A DNA stretch of 64,000 nt from Bordetella genomosp. 7 (lineage in GTDB: Bacteria > Pseudomonadota > Gammaproteobacteria > Burkholderiales > Burkholderiaceae_B): assembly GCF_002261265.1 (NCBI RefSeq), contig NZ_NEVK01000001.1:62001-126000 (forward strand), written 5' to 3'. Below, piece after piece: positions 37,696-42,575 of this stretch (the first letter of the stretch is position 1; every line of letters starts with the position of its first letter). The position numbers and the translations under genes are program-made. The notes beneath the pieces are model-generated. The model worked only from the letters and a program-made list of their open reading frames with translations, searched no databases and was not told the origin of the DNA.

Positions 37696-39753
37696 ATGTC
37701 CGACAGTACACCCATAGGCCACGGCCTGAACCCCGCCCAGAAAGAGGCTGTGCTGTACCTGGACGGCCCGTGTCTGGTGCTGGCCGGCGCGGGCAGCGGC
37801 AAGACCCGCGTCATTACCCAGAAGATTGCGTACCTGCTGCGCGAATGCGGTTACATGGGCCGCAATATCGTGGCGCTGACCTTCACCAACAAGGCCGCCC
37901 GCGAAATGGGCGAGCGCGTCAAGCCGCTGGTGGATCGTCAGATGGCAAAGGGGCTGACCATCAGCACCTTTCACGCGCTGGGCGTCAAGCTGTTGCGGGA
38001 AGAGGCGCGCCATGCAGGCCTGAAGCCGCAGTTTTCCATATTGGATGCGGACGACGCGATGGCCATCATCCAGGAACTGCTGGCCACGACGGACCGCGGG
38101 CGCTTGCGCGCGGTGCAGTCGGTTATTTCGTTGTGGAAGAATGCGCTGCTCAGCCCCGACGATGCCGAACGCATCGCGGCCACGCCCGGCGAAGTCGAGG
38201 CCGCGCGCGTGTACCGAAACTACAGCGCCACGCTGGCGGCCTACCAGGCGGTGGATTTCGATGATCTCATCCGCATACCCGCGCAGTTGCTGGAGCACAA
38301 CGAAGAGGTACGCACGCGCTGGCAGAACCGCGTGCGCTATTTGCTGGTGGACGAATATCAGGACACCAATGTGTGCCAGTACCGGCTGGTGCAGCTTTTG
38401 TGCGGAAGCCGAGCCATGTTTACCGCGGTGGGAGACGATGACCAGGCCATTTATGCCTGGCGCGGCGCCACGGTCGAGAATCTGGCCAAGCTCACCACTG
38501 ACTACCCGCAGCTCAAGCTGATCAAGCTGGAACAGAACTACCGGTCGGTGCAGCGTATCCTGGCGGCGGCCAATACGGTTATTGAAAAGAACCCCAAGCT
38601 GTTCGAGAAGAAGCTCTGGTCCGACCTGGGGGTGGGCGAGCCCATCGTTGTATCGGCGATGGACAATGATGAGCACGAGGCGCAGTCCATTGCCATGAAG
38701 ATATCGGCCGCGCGTTTCGAGCGGCAGGCGCAGTGGAAGGATTTCGCTGTGCTGTATCGCGGCAATCACCAGGCGCGCATCCTGGAGCAGGCGTTGCGCA
38801 ACCTGAAGATCCCGTACACCATCGCTGGCGGCCAAAGCTTCTTTGACAAGGCCGAGGTGCGGGACATCCTGGCTTATCTGCGGCTGATCGCCAACGACGA
38901 CGATGATCCCGCCTTCATACGGGCCGCCACCACACCCAAGCGGGGCATCGGACAGGCCACGTTGCAGGTGCTGGGCCAGTACGCCGCGCAACGAGAAGTG
39001 TCGTTGCTGGCGGCAGTGGATGAATCTGGCCTGGAAGGCCTGTTGCAGGCCCGGCAACTCGAATCGTTGCGCACTTTTGCCGAGTTCATCCGCCGCATCC
39101 AGTGGCGCGCGGGCCGGGGGCGTACCGATGGCGCGGGCTCGCCCGAATCGGCGGGCGCGATCCTGGACGACATGCTGGCGGCTATCCAGTATGAGCGCTA
39201 TTTGTACGATACGCTCGACGAGAAGCCCGCGCAGGCACGGTGGGAAAACGTGCTCGAGCTCACGGGCTGGCTCAAGCGCAAGGCCGACGAAGACGGAATG
39301 ACGCTGTTTGACCTGGTGCAGCACGTTGCGTTGATCACCATGCTCGAGCGCGGCGACGAAGAAGAGCCGGACGCGGTGAAGCTGTCGACGCTGCATGCGT
39401 CCAAAGGCCTGGAGTATCCGCACGTGTACATCGCCGGCGTGGAAGAAGGCTTGCTGCCGCACTGGGGCAAGGATGACGAAGAGGGCGACCCGGCCCGCGC
39501 CGCCGAAAGCCTGGCGACCCGCATCCAGGAAGAGCGGCGCCTGATGTACGTGGGCATCACCCGCGCACAGCGCAGCCTGAATATCAGCTGGTGCAAGAAG
39601 CGGCGCCGCGCCCGCGAAGACATGGTGCGCGAGCCTTCGCGCTTCATCGAAGAAATGGGTCTGGGCGACGTGCCGGTGCAAGAAGACGAAGCCACGCGCG
39701 CCATGAGCCCGAAAGAACGCCTGGGGATGCTCAAGGCGCTGCTGCGCAAATAG
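37696..39753 (+). CDS. rep: ATP-dependent DNA helicase Rep
   Basis: A 685-residue superfamily-1A 3'-5' helicase. The motifs are AGAGSGKT (I), TFTNKAAREM (Ia), LVDEYQDTN (II), VGDDDQAIYAWRGA (III), EQNYRS (IV), STLHASKGLEYPHV (V) and VGITRA (VI). The N-terminus GLNPAQKEAV and the 670-690-residue length favour Rep over UvrD. Rep removes proteins ahead of the fork and takes part in PriC-type restart, which fits its coupling to priA. A split palindromic repeat and the IS110 element follow 24 nt after its stop. Confidence 0.93.
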   Translation: MSDSTPIGHGLNPAQKEAVLYLDGPCLVLAGAGSGKTRVITQKIAYLLRECGYMGRNIVALTFTNKAAREMGERVKPLVDRQMAKGLTISTFHALGVKLLREEARHAGLKPQFSILDADDAMAIIQELLATTDRGRLRAVQSVISLWKNALLSPDDAERIAATPGEVEAARVYRNYSATLAAYQAVDFDDLIRIPAQLLEHNEEVRTRWQNRVRYLLVDEYQDTNVCQYRLVQLLCGSRAMFTAVGDDDQAIYAWRGATVENLAKLTTDYPQLKLIKLEQNYRSVQRILAAANTVIEKNPKLFEKKLWSDLGVGEPIVVSAMDNDEHEAQSIAMKISAARFERQAQWKDFAVLYRGNHQARILEQALRNLKIPYTIAGGQSFFDKAEVRDILAYLRLIANDDDDPAFIRAATTPKRGIGQATLQVLGQYAAQREVSLLAAVDESGLEGLLQARQLESLRTFAEFIRRIQWRAGRGRTDGAGSPESAGAILDDMLAAIQYERYLYDTLDEKPAQARWENVLELTGWLKRKADEDGMTLFDLVQHVALITMLERGDEEEPDAVKLSTLHASKGLEYPHVYIAGVEEGLLPHWGKDDEEGDPARAAESLATRIQEERRLMYVGITRAQRSLNISWCKKRRRAREDMVREPSRFIEEMGLGDVPVQEDEATRAMSPKERLGMLKALLRK

Positions 39754-39776
39754 CGAACGGGCGGTTTGTGCGATGG

Positions 39777-39787
39777 GTGTCTGACAC
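39777..39787 (+). repeat. Left half of a palindromic repeat split by the IS element
   Basis: GTGTCTGACAC ends exactly where the insertion sequence begins. The other half, ACGGAGTCAGACAC, is at 41012-41025. Joining the halves through the CT dinucleotide present at both junctions rebuilds a complete repeat copy whose arms pair fully apart from one A-A mismatch. Confidence 0.85.
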
Positions 39788-39804
39788 CTTGTATCTTGAA
39801 GGCG

Positions 39805-39990
39805 GTGGTGATTAGCTATCGCTACTAGCGTATCCGGTGAGTTTGTTCTGACACCGAAAGCCTGGACTTTGTGACGCAGATTAGGCCCCGGATGCGCGCC
39901 TCTGAGAGCCGACTGGACATTGGACGGTAGCCTAGGGCATTGTGACCCTGCATGTACAAGGCAAATGGGCGCAGTGGGCTTGGAGGCCAA
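39805..39990 (+). ncRNA. Predicted IS110 bridge RNA
   Basis: Stem 39828-39837 with 39888-39897 (10 bp, one G-U) encloses an internal loop containing TCTGACACC (39847-39855), identical to the target left half (39780-39788). A second stem (GCCTC 39898-39902 with GAGGC 39983-39987; AGCC-ACTG with CAGT-GGCT; CATT 39918-39921 with AATG 39964-39967) encloses a loop. Its 5' side has GACGGTA (39923-39929), identical to the element's right end (41002-41008); its 3' side has TACAAG (39955-39960), complementary to CTTGTA at the left end (39788-39793). An apical AGGG/CCCT hairpin separates them. The right-target guide is weaker: CGCAG (39875-39879) pairs with CTACG with one mismatch. The layout follows the bridge RNA described for IS621. 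The transcript ends are guesses. Confidence 0.75.
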
Positions 39991-40010
39991 GTTAAGAGGA
40001 GTCCGAGTCG

Positions 40011-40994
40011 ATGTTTTTTCTGGGAATTGACGTTTCGAAGGCCAAGCTGAACTGCGCTCTGATCGGCGCTGAAGGCGATAAGCGCAAGACCAAGGTGGTG
40101 CCCAATACGGTCGCGGGCATCCAGGCCTTGCTAGGGTGGTGCGCCAAGCAAGGTGCGCAGCCGGAGCAGTTGCACGTGGTGCTCGAGCCGAGCGGGCCGT
40201 ACCACGAGCAGGCGGGCACTGCGCTGCATGACGCGGGGGCCAGGGTCTCGATGATCAATCCGGCGCAGGCGCGCGATTTTGCCGGTGCGCTGGCGGTGCG
40301 CACCAAGACCGATGAGATCGACAGCTACGTGCTGGCCCGCTACGGGCAGGCACTGCGTCCGCCGTTGTGGCAGCCGGCGCCGCTGCACGCGCGGCAACTG
40401 CGCGCGCTGCTGGCCAGGCACGAGGCGCTGGCCAAGGATCTGCAGCGTGAGCTCAACCGGCAGGAGAAGGCCCAGTTCGGCCAGTCGCCCGAGCCGGTCA
40501 CCGGCTCGATTGACCAGGGCGTGGCGTTTCTGACCGAGCAGATCAAGCGCCTGGAACGTGCTATCAATGACCATATCGACCGCCATCCAGACCTGAAAGA
40601 GGACCGGGACCTGCTGACCAGCATTCCGGCCGTCGGTCCGCAGACCGGCAACGCGTTGCTGTCGATCATGCATAACCGGCGCATCGAATCGCCTCAGTCG
40701 CTGGCGGCCTATCTGGGCTTGGCGCCCGTACAGCGCCAGTCCGGCACCAGTCTGAACGGCCGGTCTCGGCTGTCCAAGACGGGGCCGGCTAGAGTGCGAG
40801 CCACCCTGTACATGGCCGCGGTCGTGGCCGTGCGCCATAACCCTCACATACAGGCGCTCTACGCCCGTTTGCTGGCCGCCGGCAATTCCAAAATGGCCGC
40901 TCTCGGGGCAGCCATGCGCAAGCTGGTCCACCTATGCTTCGGCGTGCTTAAAAACCGCACCCCATATCGCAGCGATTACGCGTTAGCCACTTGA
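40011..40994 (+). CDS. IS110-family transposase (bridge-RNA-type recombinase)
   Basis: A 327-residue protein with the N-terminal RuvC-like DEDD domain (first Asp in FLGIDVSKAKLNCA, Glu in VVLEPSGPYHE, Asp pair in RTKTDEIDSYVLARY). A helical middle follows, then the C-terminal Tnp20 domain with LTSIPAVGPQTG and the serine-recombination-like region LAAYLGLAPVQRQSGTSLNG. All four expected acidic positions appear present and the frame is intact, so it is probably active. AGAGGAG lies upstream of the ATG. Recombination of circular donor DNA into the target should be guided by the RNA encoded just upstream. Confidence 0.92.
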   Translation: MFFLGIDVSKAKLNCALIGAEGDKRKTKVVPNTVAGIQALLGWCAKQGAQPEQLHVVLEPSGPYHEQAGTALHDAGARVSMINPAQARDFAGALAVRTKTDEIDSYVLARYGQALRPPLWQPAPLHARQLRALLARHEALAKDLQRELNRQEKAQFGQSPEPVTGSIDQGVAFLTEQIKRLERAINDHIDRHPDLKEDRDLLTSIPAVGPQTGNALLSIMHNRRIESPQSLAAYLGLAPVQRQSGTSLNGRSRLSKTGPARVRATLYMAAVVAVRHNPHIQALYARLLAAGNSKMAALGAAMRKLVHLCFGVLKNRTPYRSDYALAT

Positions 40995-41011
40995 CTGCCA
41001 AGACGGTATCT

Positions 41012-41417
41012 ACGGAGTCAGACACCGGCGGACTGGGGGGAGGCGCTGCGCTTGTGCCGGTGTCTGGCTCCCGAAGGATGCCTGACACCGTTTGGTGCGA
41101 TGCGCATTTGACACCTACGGAGTCAGACACCGGCGGACTGGGGGAGGCGCTGCGCCTGTACAGGTGTCTGGCTCCCGAAGGGTGCCTGACACCGTTTGAT
41201 GCGATGCGCGTTTGACACCTACGGAGTCAGACACCGGCGGACTGGGGGGAGGCGCTGCGCCTGTGCAGGTGTCTGGCTCCCGAAGGGTGCCTGACACCGT
41301 TTAGTGCGATGCGCATTTGACACCTACGGAGTCAGACACCGGCGGACTGGGGGGGAGGCGCTGTGCTTGTGCAGGTGTCTGGCTCCCGAAGGGTGCCTGA
41401 CACCGTTTGGTGCGATG
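41012..41417. repeat. Tandem palindrome array 3 (104-105-bp units, four copies)
   Basis: Units begin at 41011, 41115, 41220 and 41325. Each contains one inverted-type palindrome (TTTGACACC-TACGGAGTCAGACACC across the unit boundary) and one direct-type palindrome (GGTGTCTGGCTCCC... GGTGCCTGACACC), so the repeated unit is an inverted/direct pair. The first unit was interrupted by the IS element. The array lies between rep (plus) and an M20 peptidase gene (minus). Frames through it are repeat artefacts. Confidence 0.93.
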
Positions 41418-41444
41418 AGATGGCTGACGCTGTTGCGTGATGGA

Positions 41445-42575
41445 TCAGGCGAGTTCGCGCAGCAGCAGTTCCCAGAACTTGAGCCGGGTCTGCAGGGTGG
41501 AAACCAGGATGTATTCGTGCAGCGTATGCGCGCCGTCGCCGTCGGCGCCCAGGCCGTCGAGTGTGGGCACGCCTATGGCGGACGTGAAATTTGCATCGCT
41601 GCCGCCGCCTGTCATGGGGGCTTCTTCGAGTGCAAAGCCGGCTTCGCGCGCGTACTGCTGCGCGCGCGACAGCAGCGCCGCGGCCGCGTCGGTGCGCACC
41701 ATCGGCGGCCGGTTGAGTTCGACGTTGATATCCAGCTCTACATCGGGCCCTACTGCACACAGGTTGCGCATGCGGCGCAGCACATCTTCGGCCGCGCCCA
41801 TATCGGGCACGCGGAAGTCGACCACGCAGCGGCAGCGGGCCGGCACGGTATTGGTGACTGTGCCGCCGGCAATCGTGCCCACGCTTACGGTAACGCCGCG
41901 CTCGTAATCGGTCATGGCTTCCAGGGCCAGCACCTGGTGCGCCATTTCGCGTATGGCGCTACGGCCCTTTTCGTGCTGCATGCCGGCATGCGCGGGACGG
42001 CCCTTGACGTCCAGGCGCAGCATGCCGGTGCCTTTGCGGGCCGTGACACACTTGCCGCCGTTGGGTCGGGCGGGCTCGCACACCAGCGCGTACTTGGCGT
42101 TGGCGGCGTACCGTTCAATCGATGCGCGCGAGGCATGGCTTCCGGTTTCTTCGTCGGGCACCATCAGGAAGTCCACAGGCAGGCGGGTGGCGCCAGGTTG
42201 GGCCAGCCTGGCCAGCGCAGCCAGCGCCAGGTAGATGCCGCCTTTCATGTCGTAGCTGCCCGGGCCGTACAGGCGGTCGCCCTCGACGCGGCACGGATTG
42301 TCCTGCAGCGTGCCGACCGGGTGTACCGTGTCCAGGTGCGCCAGCACCAGGATGCCGGGCCGCGTATCGCCGGGGGCGCGATTGGTGGTGTACAGCAGCG
42401 GGCCCGTGGCCGGGCCAAGCGGCGTGATTTCAACGTTCAGGCCGGCCGCGCTTGCCTGCGCCTGCACCAGTTCGGCCATGGCGGCCACGCCTTGCGGCGA
42501 GTTCGACGGCGATTCGCATTGCACCCACGACTGGATGCCGGCGACGATTTCTTCGGTGGTGGGCAACGATGACAT
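41445..42575 (-). CDS. M20-family metallopeptidase (carboxypeptidase G2-like)
   Basis: A 376-residue cytoplasmic dizinc amidohydrolase. The zinc ligands are in VLAHLDTVHP (His with Asp two residues on), GSYDMKGGI (bridging Asp) and DEETGSHASR (Glu pair), with GGGSDANF near the C-terminus; the dimerisation lid contains VKGRPAHAGMQHEKGRSA. This subgroup removes terminal glutamate or other amino acids from N-acyl or short peptide substrates. It is the last gene of the ABC transport operon, which suggests it processes the imported compound. Confidence 0.9.
   Translation of the reverse strand: MSSLPTTEEIVAGIQSWVQCESPSNSPQGVAAMAELVQAQASAAGLNVEITPLGPATGPLLYTTNRAPGDTRPGILVLAHLDTVHPVGTLQDNPCRVEGDRLYGPGSYDMKGGIYLALAALARLAQPGATRLPVDFLMVPDEETGSHASRASIERYAANAKYALVCEPARPNGGKCVTARKGTGMLRLDVKGRPAHAGMQHEKGRSAIREMAHQVLALEAMTDYERGVTVSVGTIAGGTVTNTVPARCRCVVDFRVPDMGAAEDVLRRMRNLCAVGPDVELDINVELNRPPMVRTDAAAALLSRAQQYAREAGFALEEAPMTGGGSDANFTSAIGVPTLDGLGADGDGAHTLHEYILVSTLQTRLKFWELLLRELA

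Follow-up and report, generated by a model that had tools for sequence, protein, structure and literature searches.

A predicted bridge RNA in an IS110-group insertion sequence of Bordetella genomosp. 7, with guides corresponding to its REP-like target and its own ends

Background

The closest described counterpart of the locus considered here is IS621 of Escherichia coli, for which Durrant et al. (2024) reported the same arrangement of target and donor loops in a bridge RNA; in the same paper, bridge RNAs were predicted in 85.7% of IS110-group elements (PMC11208160). The seekRNA described for ISEc21 and the IS1111 group (PMC11187229) is similar, being encoded in non-coding sequence and directing insertion through short stretches that match either strand of the target, and the upstream position given there for IS110-type elements is the one found here. 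The seekRNA is described as shorter (74 for ISEc21) and in terms of target matches, whereas the RNA predicted here has both target and donor loops, as in IS621. On the host side, it has long been known that IS110 elements can target REP repeats (PMC1525189), and Bordetella genomes contain REP-like Bor repeats (PMC1590033). The Bordetella petrii genome paper reports six copies of IS1663 in a 5,287,950-bp genome. IS1663 is also counted among the ISfinder IS110-family elements, with more than 7,000 unique insertion events, in the seekRNA paper, where target logos were computed for ISfinder IS110 members, IS1663 being among those counted (PMC11187229). No guide assignment for the present element was found in the literature on IS1663 or Bordetella combined with bridge RNA, seekRNA, or IS110, in the part of it that was covered.

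The mechanism was published in 2024 and is not new; the element described below reads as a sound, well-supported new example of it. It provides an independent confirmation, starting from raw sequence, in the form of a Bordetella-type IS110-group element with a complete predicted bridge-RNA system and identifiable guides.

The Element, Its Copies, and Its Target

The window analyzed is a 64,000-nt stretch of the Bordetella genomosp. 7 genome. Reading of the sequence places an IS110-group insertion sequence with an intact transposase gene at 39788–41011 (Table 1); it is probably an autonomous element of ~1,222 bp. The left non-coding end is long, beginning TGTATCTTG and occupying 221 nt ahead of the transposase, while the right end (40991–41009, TTGACTGCCAAGACGGTAT) is short. 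Only 15 nt follow the stop codon, and the RNA in the right end that is a feature of the IS1111 group is absent. The core dinucleotide is CT in most of the relatives examined.

Both expected domains of the recombinase, PF01548 (DEDD RuvC-like) and PF02371 (Transposase_20), score above cut-off, and residues 2–320 align to the solved recombinases of IS621 (8wt6) and ISCro4 (PDB 9t56), the latter with E = 1e-58. The active site of IS621 is reported to consist of D11, E60, D102, D105, and S241 (PMC11208158), to which D7, E59, D101, D104, and S244, respectively, are aligned.

Two copies in the same genome are complete, and a third is cut off by the start of a contig. Among relatives, there are six copies in G001 (95% protein identity), three in G003 (87%), and eight in G092 (73%), and within each of G000, G001, G003, and G092 the copies occupy different chromosomal places. 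The element is probably IS1663-like, a likeness that comes from copy number (six in G001, at 95% amino acid identity, and six of IS1663 in B. petrii). No near-identical copy was found in plasmid records, of which 1,288 carry relatives (E up to 1e-40); eight places from these were analyzed. Phage records with relatives number 17.

The insertion is at the left edge of a tandem array, the 105-bp unit of which bears the target palindromes. The uninterrupted target TGACACCTACGGAGTC occurs in the array at 41109, 41213, and 41318, and across the genome there are 60 sites with at most two mismatches to TGACACCTACGGAGTCAGACACC. The target presumably belongs to the Bor repeats. The REP-like repeat family of these hosts is tied here to a defined, predicted RNA-guided inserter.

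Table 1. Coordinates, in window positions, of the element, its predicted bridge RNA, and adjoining host sequence.
Feature	Position	Strand	Basis
Left target flank TCTGACAC, within REP-like host repeat	39780–39787	+	Flanks of 3/3 own-genome copies
Left core dinucleotide CT	39788–39789	+	Read directly; CT also at right junction
Left non-coding end, encoding predicted bridge RNA	39790–40010	+	Model R1 match
−10 half of predicted circle-junction promoter, TATCTT	39792–39797	+	Joined-end scoring
5′ stem-loop of predicted bridge RNA	39805–39825	+	Helix 1, compensatory changes in 6/8 pairs
Target-loop stem, 5′ arm, pairing with 39888–39897	39828–39837	+	Helix 2, compensatory changes in 9/9 pairs
Left target guide TCTGACACC	39847–39855	+	Exact match to left flank plus core C
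Right target guide CGCAG, complementary to CTGCG	39875–39879	+	Right target here CTACG
Target-loop stem, 3′ arm	39888–39897	+	Covariation
Donor-loop stems, 5′ arms GCCGACTG and CATT	39908–39921	+	Helices 5 and 6
Left donor guide GGACGGTA, sharing GACGGTA with IS right end	39922–39929	+	Permutation, 39/20,000
Donor-loop inner hairpin AGGG/CCCT	39934–39949	+	Helix 7, 98.4% of cells paired
Right donor guide TACAAG, complementary to left-end CTTGTA	39955–39960	+	Permutation, 56/20,000
Donor-loop stems, 3′ arms AATG and CAGTGGGC	39964–39979	+	Covariation
IS110-family DEDD/serine recombinase, 327 aa	40011–40994	+	Pfam PF01548, PF02371; structure alignments
IS right end, with TTGACT (40991–40996) as −35 half of predicted junction promoter, then GACGGTAT ahead of core	40991–41009	+	Joined-end scoring
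Right core CT, opening a tandem array of 3.9 REP-like 105-bp units	41010–41417	+	

Structure and Covariation of the Predicted RNA

The original prediction was of a putative bridge RNA with two loops in the left non-coding end, to be checked by folding 39790–40010. As a single sequence this region folds unremarkably (z = −1.48, with 20 of 200 shuffles folding equally well). This makes the fold of the lone sequence weak evidence, and the structure was tested by comparing homologues. Sixteen left ends, all from Gammaproteobacteria, were aligned: those of the window, G001, G003, Achromobacter mucicolens, G010, G092, G379, G635, G378, and seven of the eight plasmid elements. Unaided, RNAalifold recovered three parts of the structure (5′ stem-loop, target-loop stem, and inner donor hairpin), with compensatory changes in 24 of 33 pairs. 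It also proposed a pairing between left end and right donor guide, a consequence of the donor complementarity; for the final structure this pairing was dropped and the donor-loop stems were added.

In the final structure, both partners have changed in 31 of 39 pairs and 84.3% of cells are paired across the 16 homologues, compared with 39–49% in controls with slid partners. The covariation score is 0.540 vs. 0.253 for shuffled alignments, none of 500 reaching it, and 0.09–0.19 for slid ones. The target-loop stem contains one G-U pair. In the donor loop, CATT (39918–39921) pairs with AATG (39964–39967); the outer stem (helix 5) is weak, with 54.8% of cells paired, and helix 6 has 89.1%. The two-loop structure is upheld mainly by covarying stems in both loops, weakly for the outer donor stem; the fold of the single sequence adds little. 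By analogy with IS621, the RNA would start near 39804.

A covariance model (R1) built from the 16-sequence alignment matches 39788–40008 at 188.1 bits, the window being one of its training sequences. Among 35 loci that played no part in its training, 27 match (E up to 0.1), four with weak scores (E 0.002–0.02), and the eight without a match are those at which only a partial transposase was found. Rfam gave no match at the gathering score for the whole window, nor at E up to 1 for 39700–41500.

There are five R1 matches in G003 vs. three transposase genes. The two extra ones (L111 and L114) were considered as orphan bridge RNAs, but have directly after them one N, marking an assembly join, and no transposase; they are accordingly taken as probable collapsed full copies. 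In G004, a weak R1 match (L104:1501–1650, 23.5 bits) adjoins GTGTCCGGCACC-type repeats and is likely a degraded remnant of this IS.

Target Guides and Flanking Sequences

Direct reading bears out the loop positions and guide matches originally given, at every coordinate. The guide in the first loop was said to be the left half of the target, and TCTGACACC indeed matches TCTGACAC plus the core C; the donor matches, GACGGTA to the right end and TACAAG complementary to the left end, and the partial right-target guide, with its single mismatch, were also correctly reported. Copies with the same guide are not at unrelated targets: in all three from the window's own genome, the left flank is TCTGACAC followed by CT.

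Where relatives have other guides they generally have other flanks, with exceptions. In G003 the left guide is TCTGGCACC and the three complete copies are at TCTGGCAC; of the N-joined copies, one is at TCTGGCAC and the other (L114) at TCTGACAC, where the guide reads TCTGGCAC. The right guide in G092 is GGGACAG, and all eight copies stand before CTGTCCC; the left guide ends GGTGCC, which is also the flank of six copies, the other two having GAGCC. Two Methylomonas copies have the left guide ATCGGAG and the site ATCGGAG, and for the E. coli, Pantoea, and Acinetobacter plasmid elements the left flanks match over all eight bases tested.

For the right guide, a first test with a sliding 7-base window was not significant (1,466/20,000 permutations). 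Guides were then located by an anchor, AGAT (or AGTTTAG, AGGTAGG). With this anchor the guides match their own right flanks at a mean of 3.78 of 5 bases vs. 2.16 when permuted (0/50,000; 19 families, 35 elements), and with one family per distinct guide (n = 12) at 3.35 vs. 1.86 (0/50,000). As the anchor was chosen after seeing the sequences, a register-shift control is given: shifting by 1–3 bases lowers the match to 1.12–1.83. In the first anchored version the wrong AG had been used in G003, G092, L072, and L078, and the result was still 0/50,000. L047 and L087, for which no right flank was read, are not in this set, nor are L062, L063, and the eight plasmid loci; of the latter ten, four were read separately, with matches at 5/5 bases in L062, L096, and L097 and at 2/5 in L100.

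Left guides match their own left flanks at a mean of 6.47 of 8 bases vs. 5.10 permuted (0/20,000; 31 families, 47 elements, the left ends of L062 and L063 having been added by hand). The match is at least 7/8 in only 16 of the 31 families, and some of the best matches fall outside the expected loop position. For nine held-out elements (L007, L074, L076, L081, L082, L086, L088, L090, and L091; the flank of L085 was too short) the values are 6.00 and 5.21 (29/20,000). Their left ends were taken from the R1 match; those of L074, L082, and L088 are doubtful, yet were counted. Pooling gives 6.36 vs. 5.08 over 40 families and 56 elements (0/20,000). Excluded from the left-guide tests were L080 (partial R1 match) and L049, L061, L068, L077, L083, L084, L089, and L092 (partial transposase); L046 is the same place as L057. 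Note that the permutations treat families as exchangeable, which is true only roughly. The correspondence of guides and flanks, including the permutation results, indicates that the first loop pairs with both halves of the target and covaries with them across relatives, in support of the bridge-RNA interpretation first proposed for this locus.

Donor Guides and a Possible Junction Promoter

The 7-nt sequence GACGGTA at 39923–39929, in the second loop, is identical to that in the right end at 41002–41008. Donor guides vary little among the families, yet favor their own ends (39 and 56 of 20,000 permutations for left and right, respectively).

Joining the right and left ends through CT, as in a circle, would form a sigma-70-like promoter, TTGACT-17-TATCTT for the window copy. 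In 24 families scored the same way, the best sigma-70-like site always has a 17-bp spacer, and the mean match is 9.08 of 12 vs. 6.76 for shuffled sequences. The −35 element starts 19 bases before the core in all families except L093. The right-end motif of L093 is ~95 bases beyond a likelier candidate, so this end is probably misplaced and the L093 donor and promoter rows should be ignored.

Proposed Mechanism and Alternatives

Very probably, then, this is an IS110 element that excises as a circle and is inserted by means of its own bridge RNA into a REP-like repeat. In the excised circle, the joined ends would provide the promoter for a bridge RNA of ~180 nt from the left end, to be bound by the recombinase. 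The first loop would pair with the host repeat, TCTGACACC with the bottom strand and CGCAG with the top strand, and the second with the joined ends of the element itself. Cleavage beside the CT core would be the work of a recombinase tetramer, by way of a serine intermediate, and strand exchange would insert the circle. The boundaries, catalytic residues, RNA structure, guide-target and guide-donor correspondence, and promoter-like junction are the sequence basis of this scheme, while the circle, its transcription, the length of the RNA, its binding by the recombinase, and the chemistry are carried over by analogy with IS621.

A structured region directly upstream of a transposase start could also be a 5′ leader regulating transposase translation, with the protein alone recognizing the target and the apparent guides being captured target remnants. 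There is some precedent in ISPpu9, an IS110-family element for which regulation of the transposase by small RNAs and 5′-UTR structure has been reported (PMC8450116). A captured target would not, however, give sense and antisense half-targets at fixed loop positions, and across 12 distinct types of right guide the agreement with the right flank is lost as soon as the register is shifted; for IS621, moreover, recombination is reported to require the RNA (PMC11208160). This explanation is accordingly considered very improbable. Still harder to credit is that the matches reflect chance together with common descent of the elements and their flanks. Seven families have a right guide for GACCC in common, most of them at CTGACC-type targets, as common descent would have it, and the nonsignificant sliding test could be read in the same direction. 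Against this, the anchored test with each distinct guide represented by a single family retains its full significance, the left guide is supported by the held-out elements, backward control patterns occur once per genome vs. 28–59 real sites, and copies are at different chromosomal places in four genomes (G000, G001, G003, and G092).

Mismatched Targets and Guide Changes in the Lineage

Both the guides and the target repeat differ from those of IS621. The left guide here matches the core C and the eight bases before it, with no partner in this guide for the core T, and the right guide is mismatched at the first base after the core. The mismatch is between CGCAG (39875–39879) and CTACG (41010–41014). 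Only two of the five bases beyond the core match the window's right guide, with the first mismatched in both complete copies, and taken alone this guide is not convincing. The two readable right targets in this genome are CTACG and CTTCG, vs. the CTGCG that the guide asks for, and CTGCG is the right target of four of the six G001 copies and two of the three in G003. None of the 50 TCTGRCACCTNCGG sites in the window's own genome carries the required G at the variable position, which is found at 20 of 59 sites in G001 and 17 of 28 in G003. The own genome also has 27 sites of the form TCTGRCACCCTGCGGGAG, which fit the right guide but have one base more on the left side; all three copies are found elsewhere, for which the probability by chance is ~0.27 (50 vs. 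27 sites, three insertions).

Left guides in hosts of the Bordetella and Achromobacter type are TCTGACAC, TCTGGCAC, and TCAGACAC, and in G092 the pair is GGTGCC/CTGTCCC. A possible, if rather doubtful, further reading is of a lineage in which guide reprogramming, host by host to the local repeat, is recorded in nature, the window copy being caught between hosts. If so, the register of the left guide would in nature count for more than a mismatch of the right guide next to the core, which three insertions are too few to establish statistically. The six G001 copies depart from this rule: in four of them (L009, L011, L013, and L014) the matching left sequence is separated from the core by one additional C, a slip of one base in the left register. 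In any case, the close relatives, whose guides differ and whose flanks match, are a natural data set for rules of mismatch and register.

Other poor fits are scattered among the relatives. Right flanks match poorly for L015, L057, L064, L066, and L078 (1–2/5) and for L100 (2/5). On the left, counting the first copy per family, L058 matches at 4/8 and G092, L063, L070, L071, L072, and L100 at 5/8, as do L007, L074, L086, and L088 in the held-out set. In the distant L062 and L063 the left junction is TT and not CT, the right junction of L062 being CT.

A sister group (L058, L062–L064, L069–L073, and L075, from Nitrosomonas, Duganella, and others) has the left end CGTAT, not TGTAT. The right donor guide in the sister-group RNAs examined is ACGAG instead of ACAAG, except that L073 differs, and the right guide GGGTC, for CTGACCC targets, is common to many of these elements.
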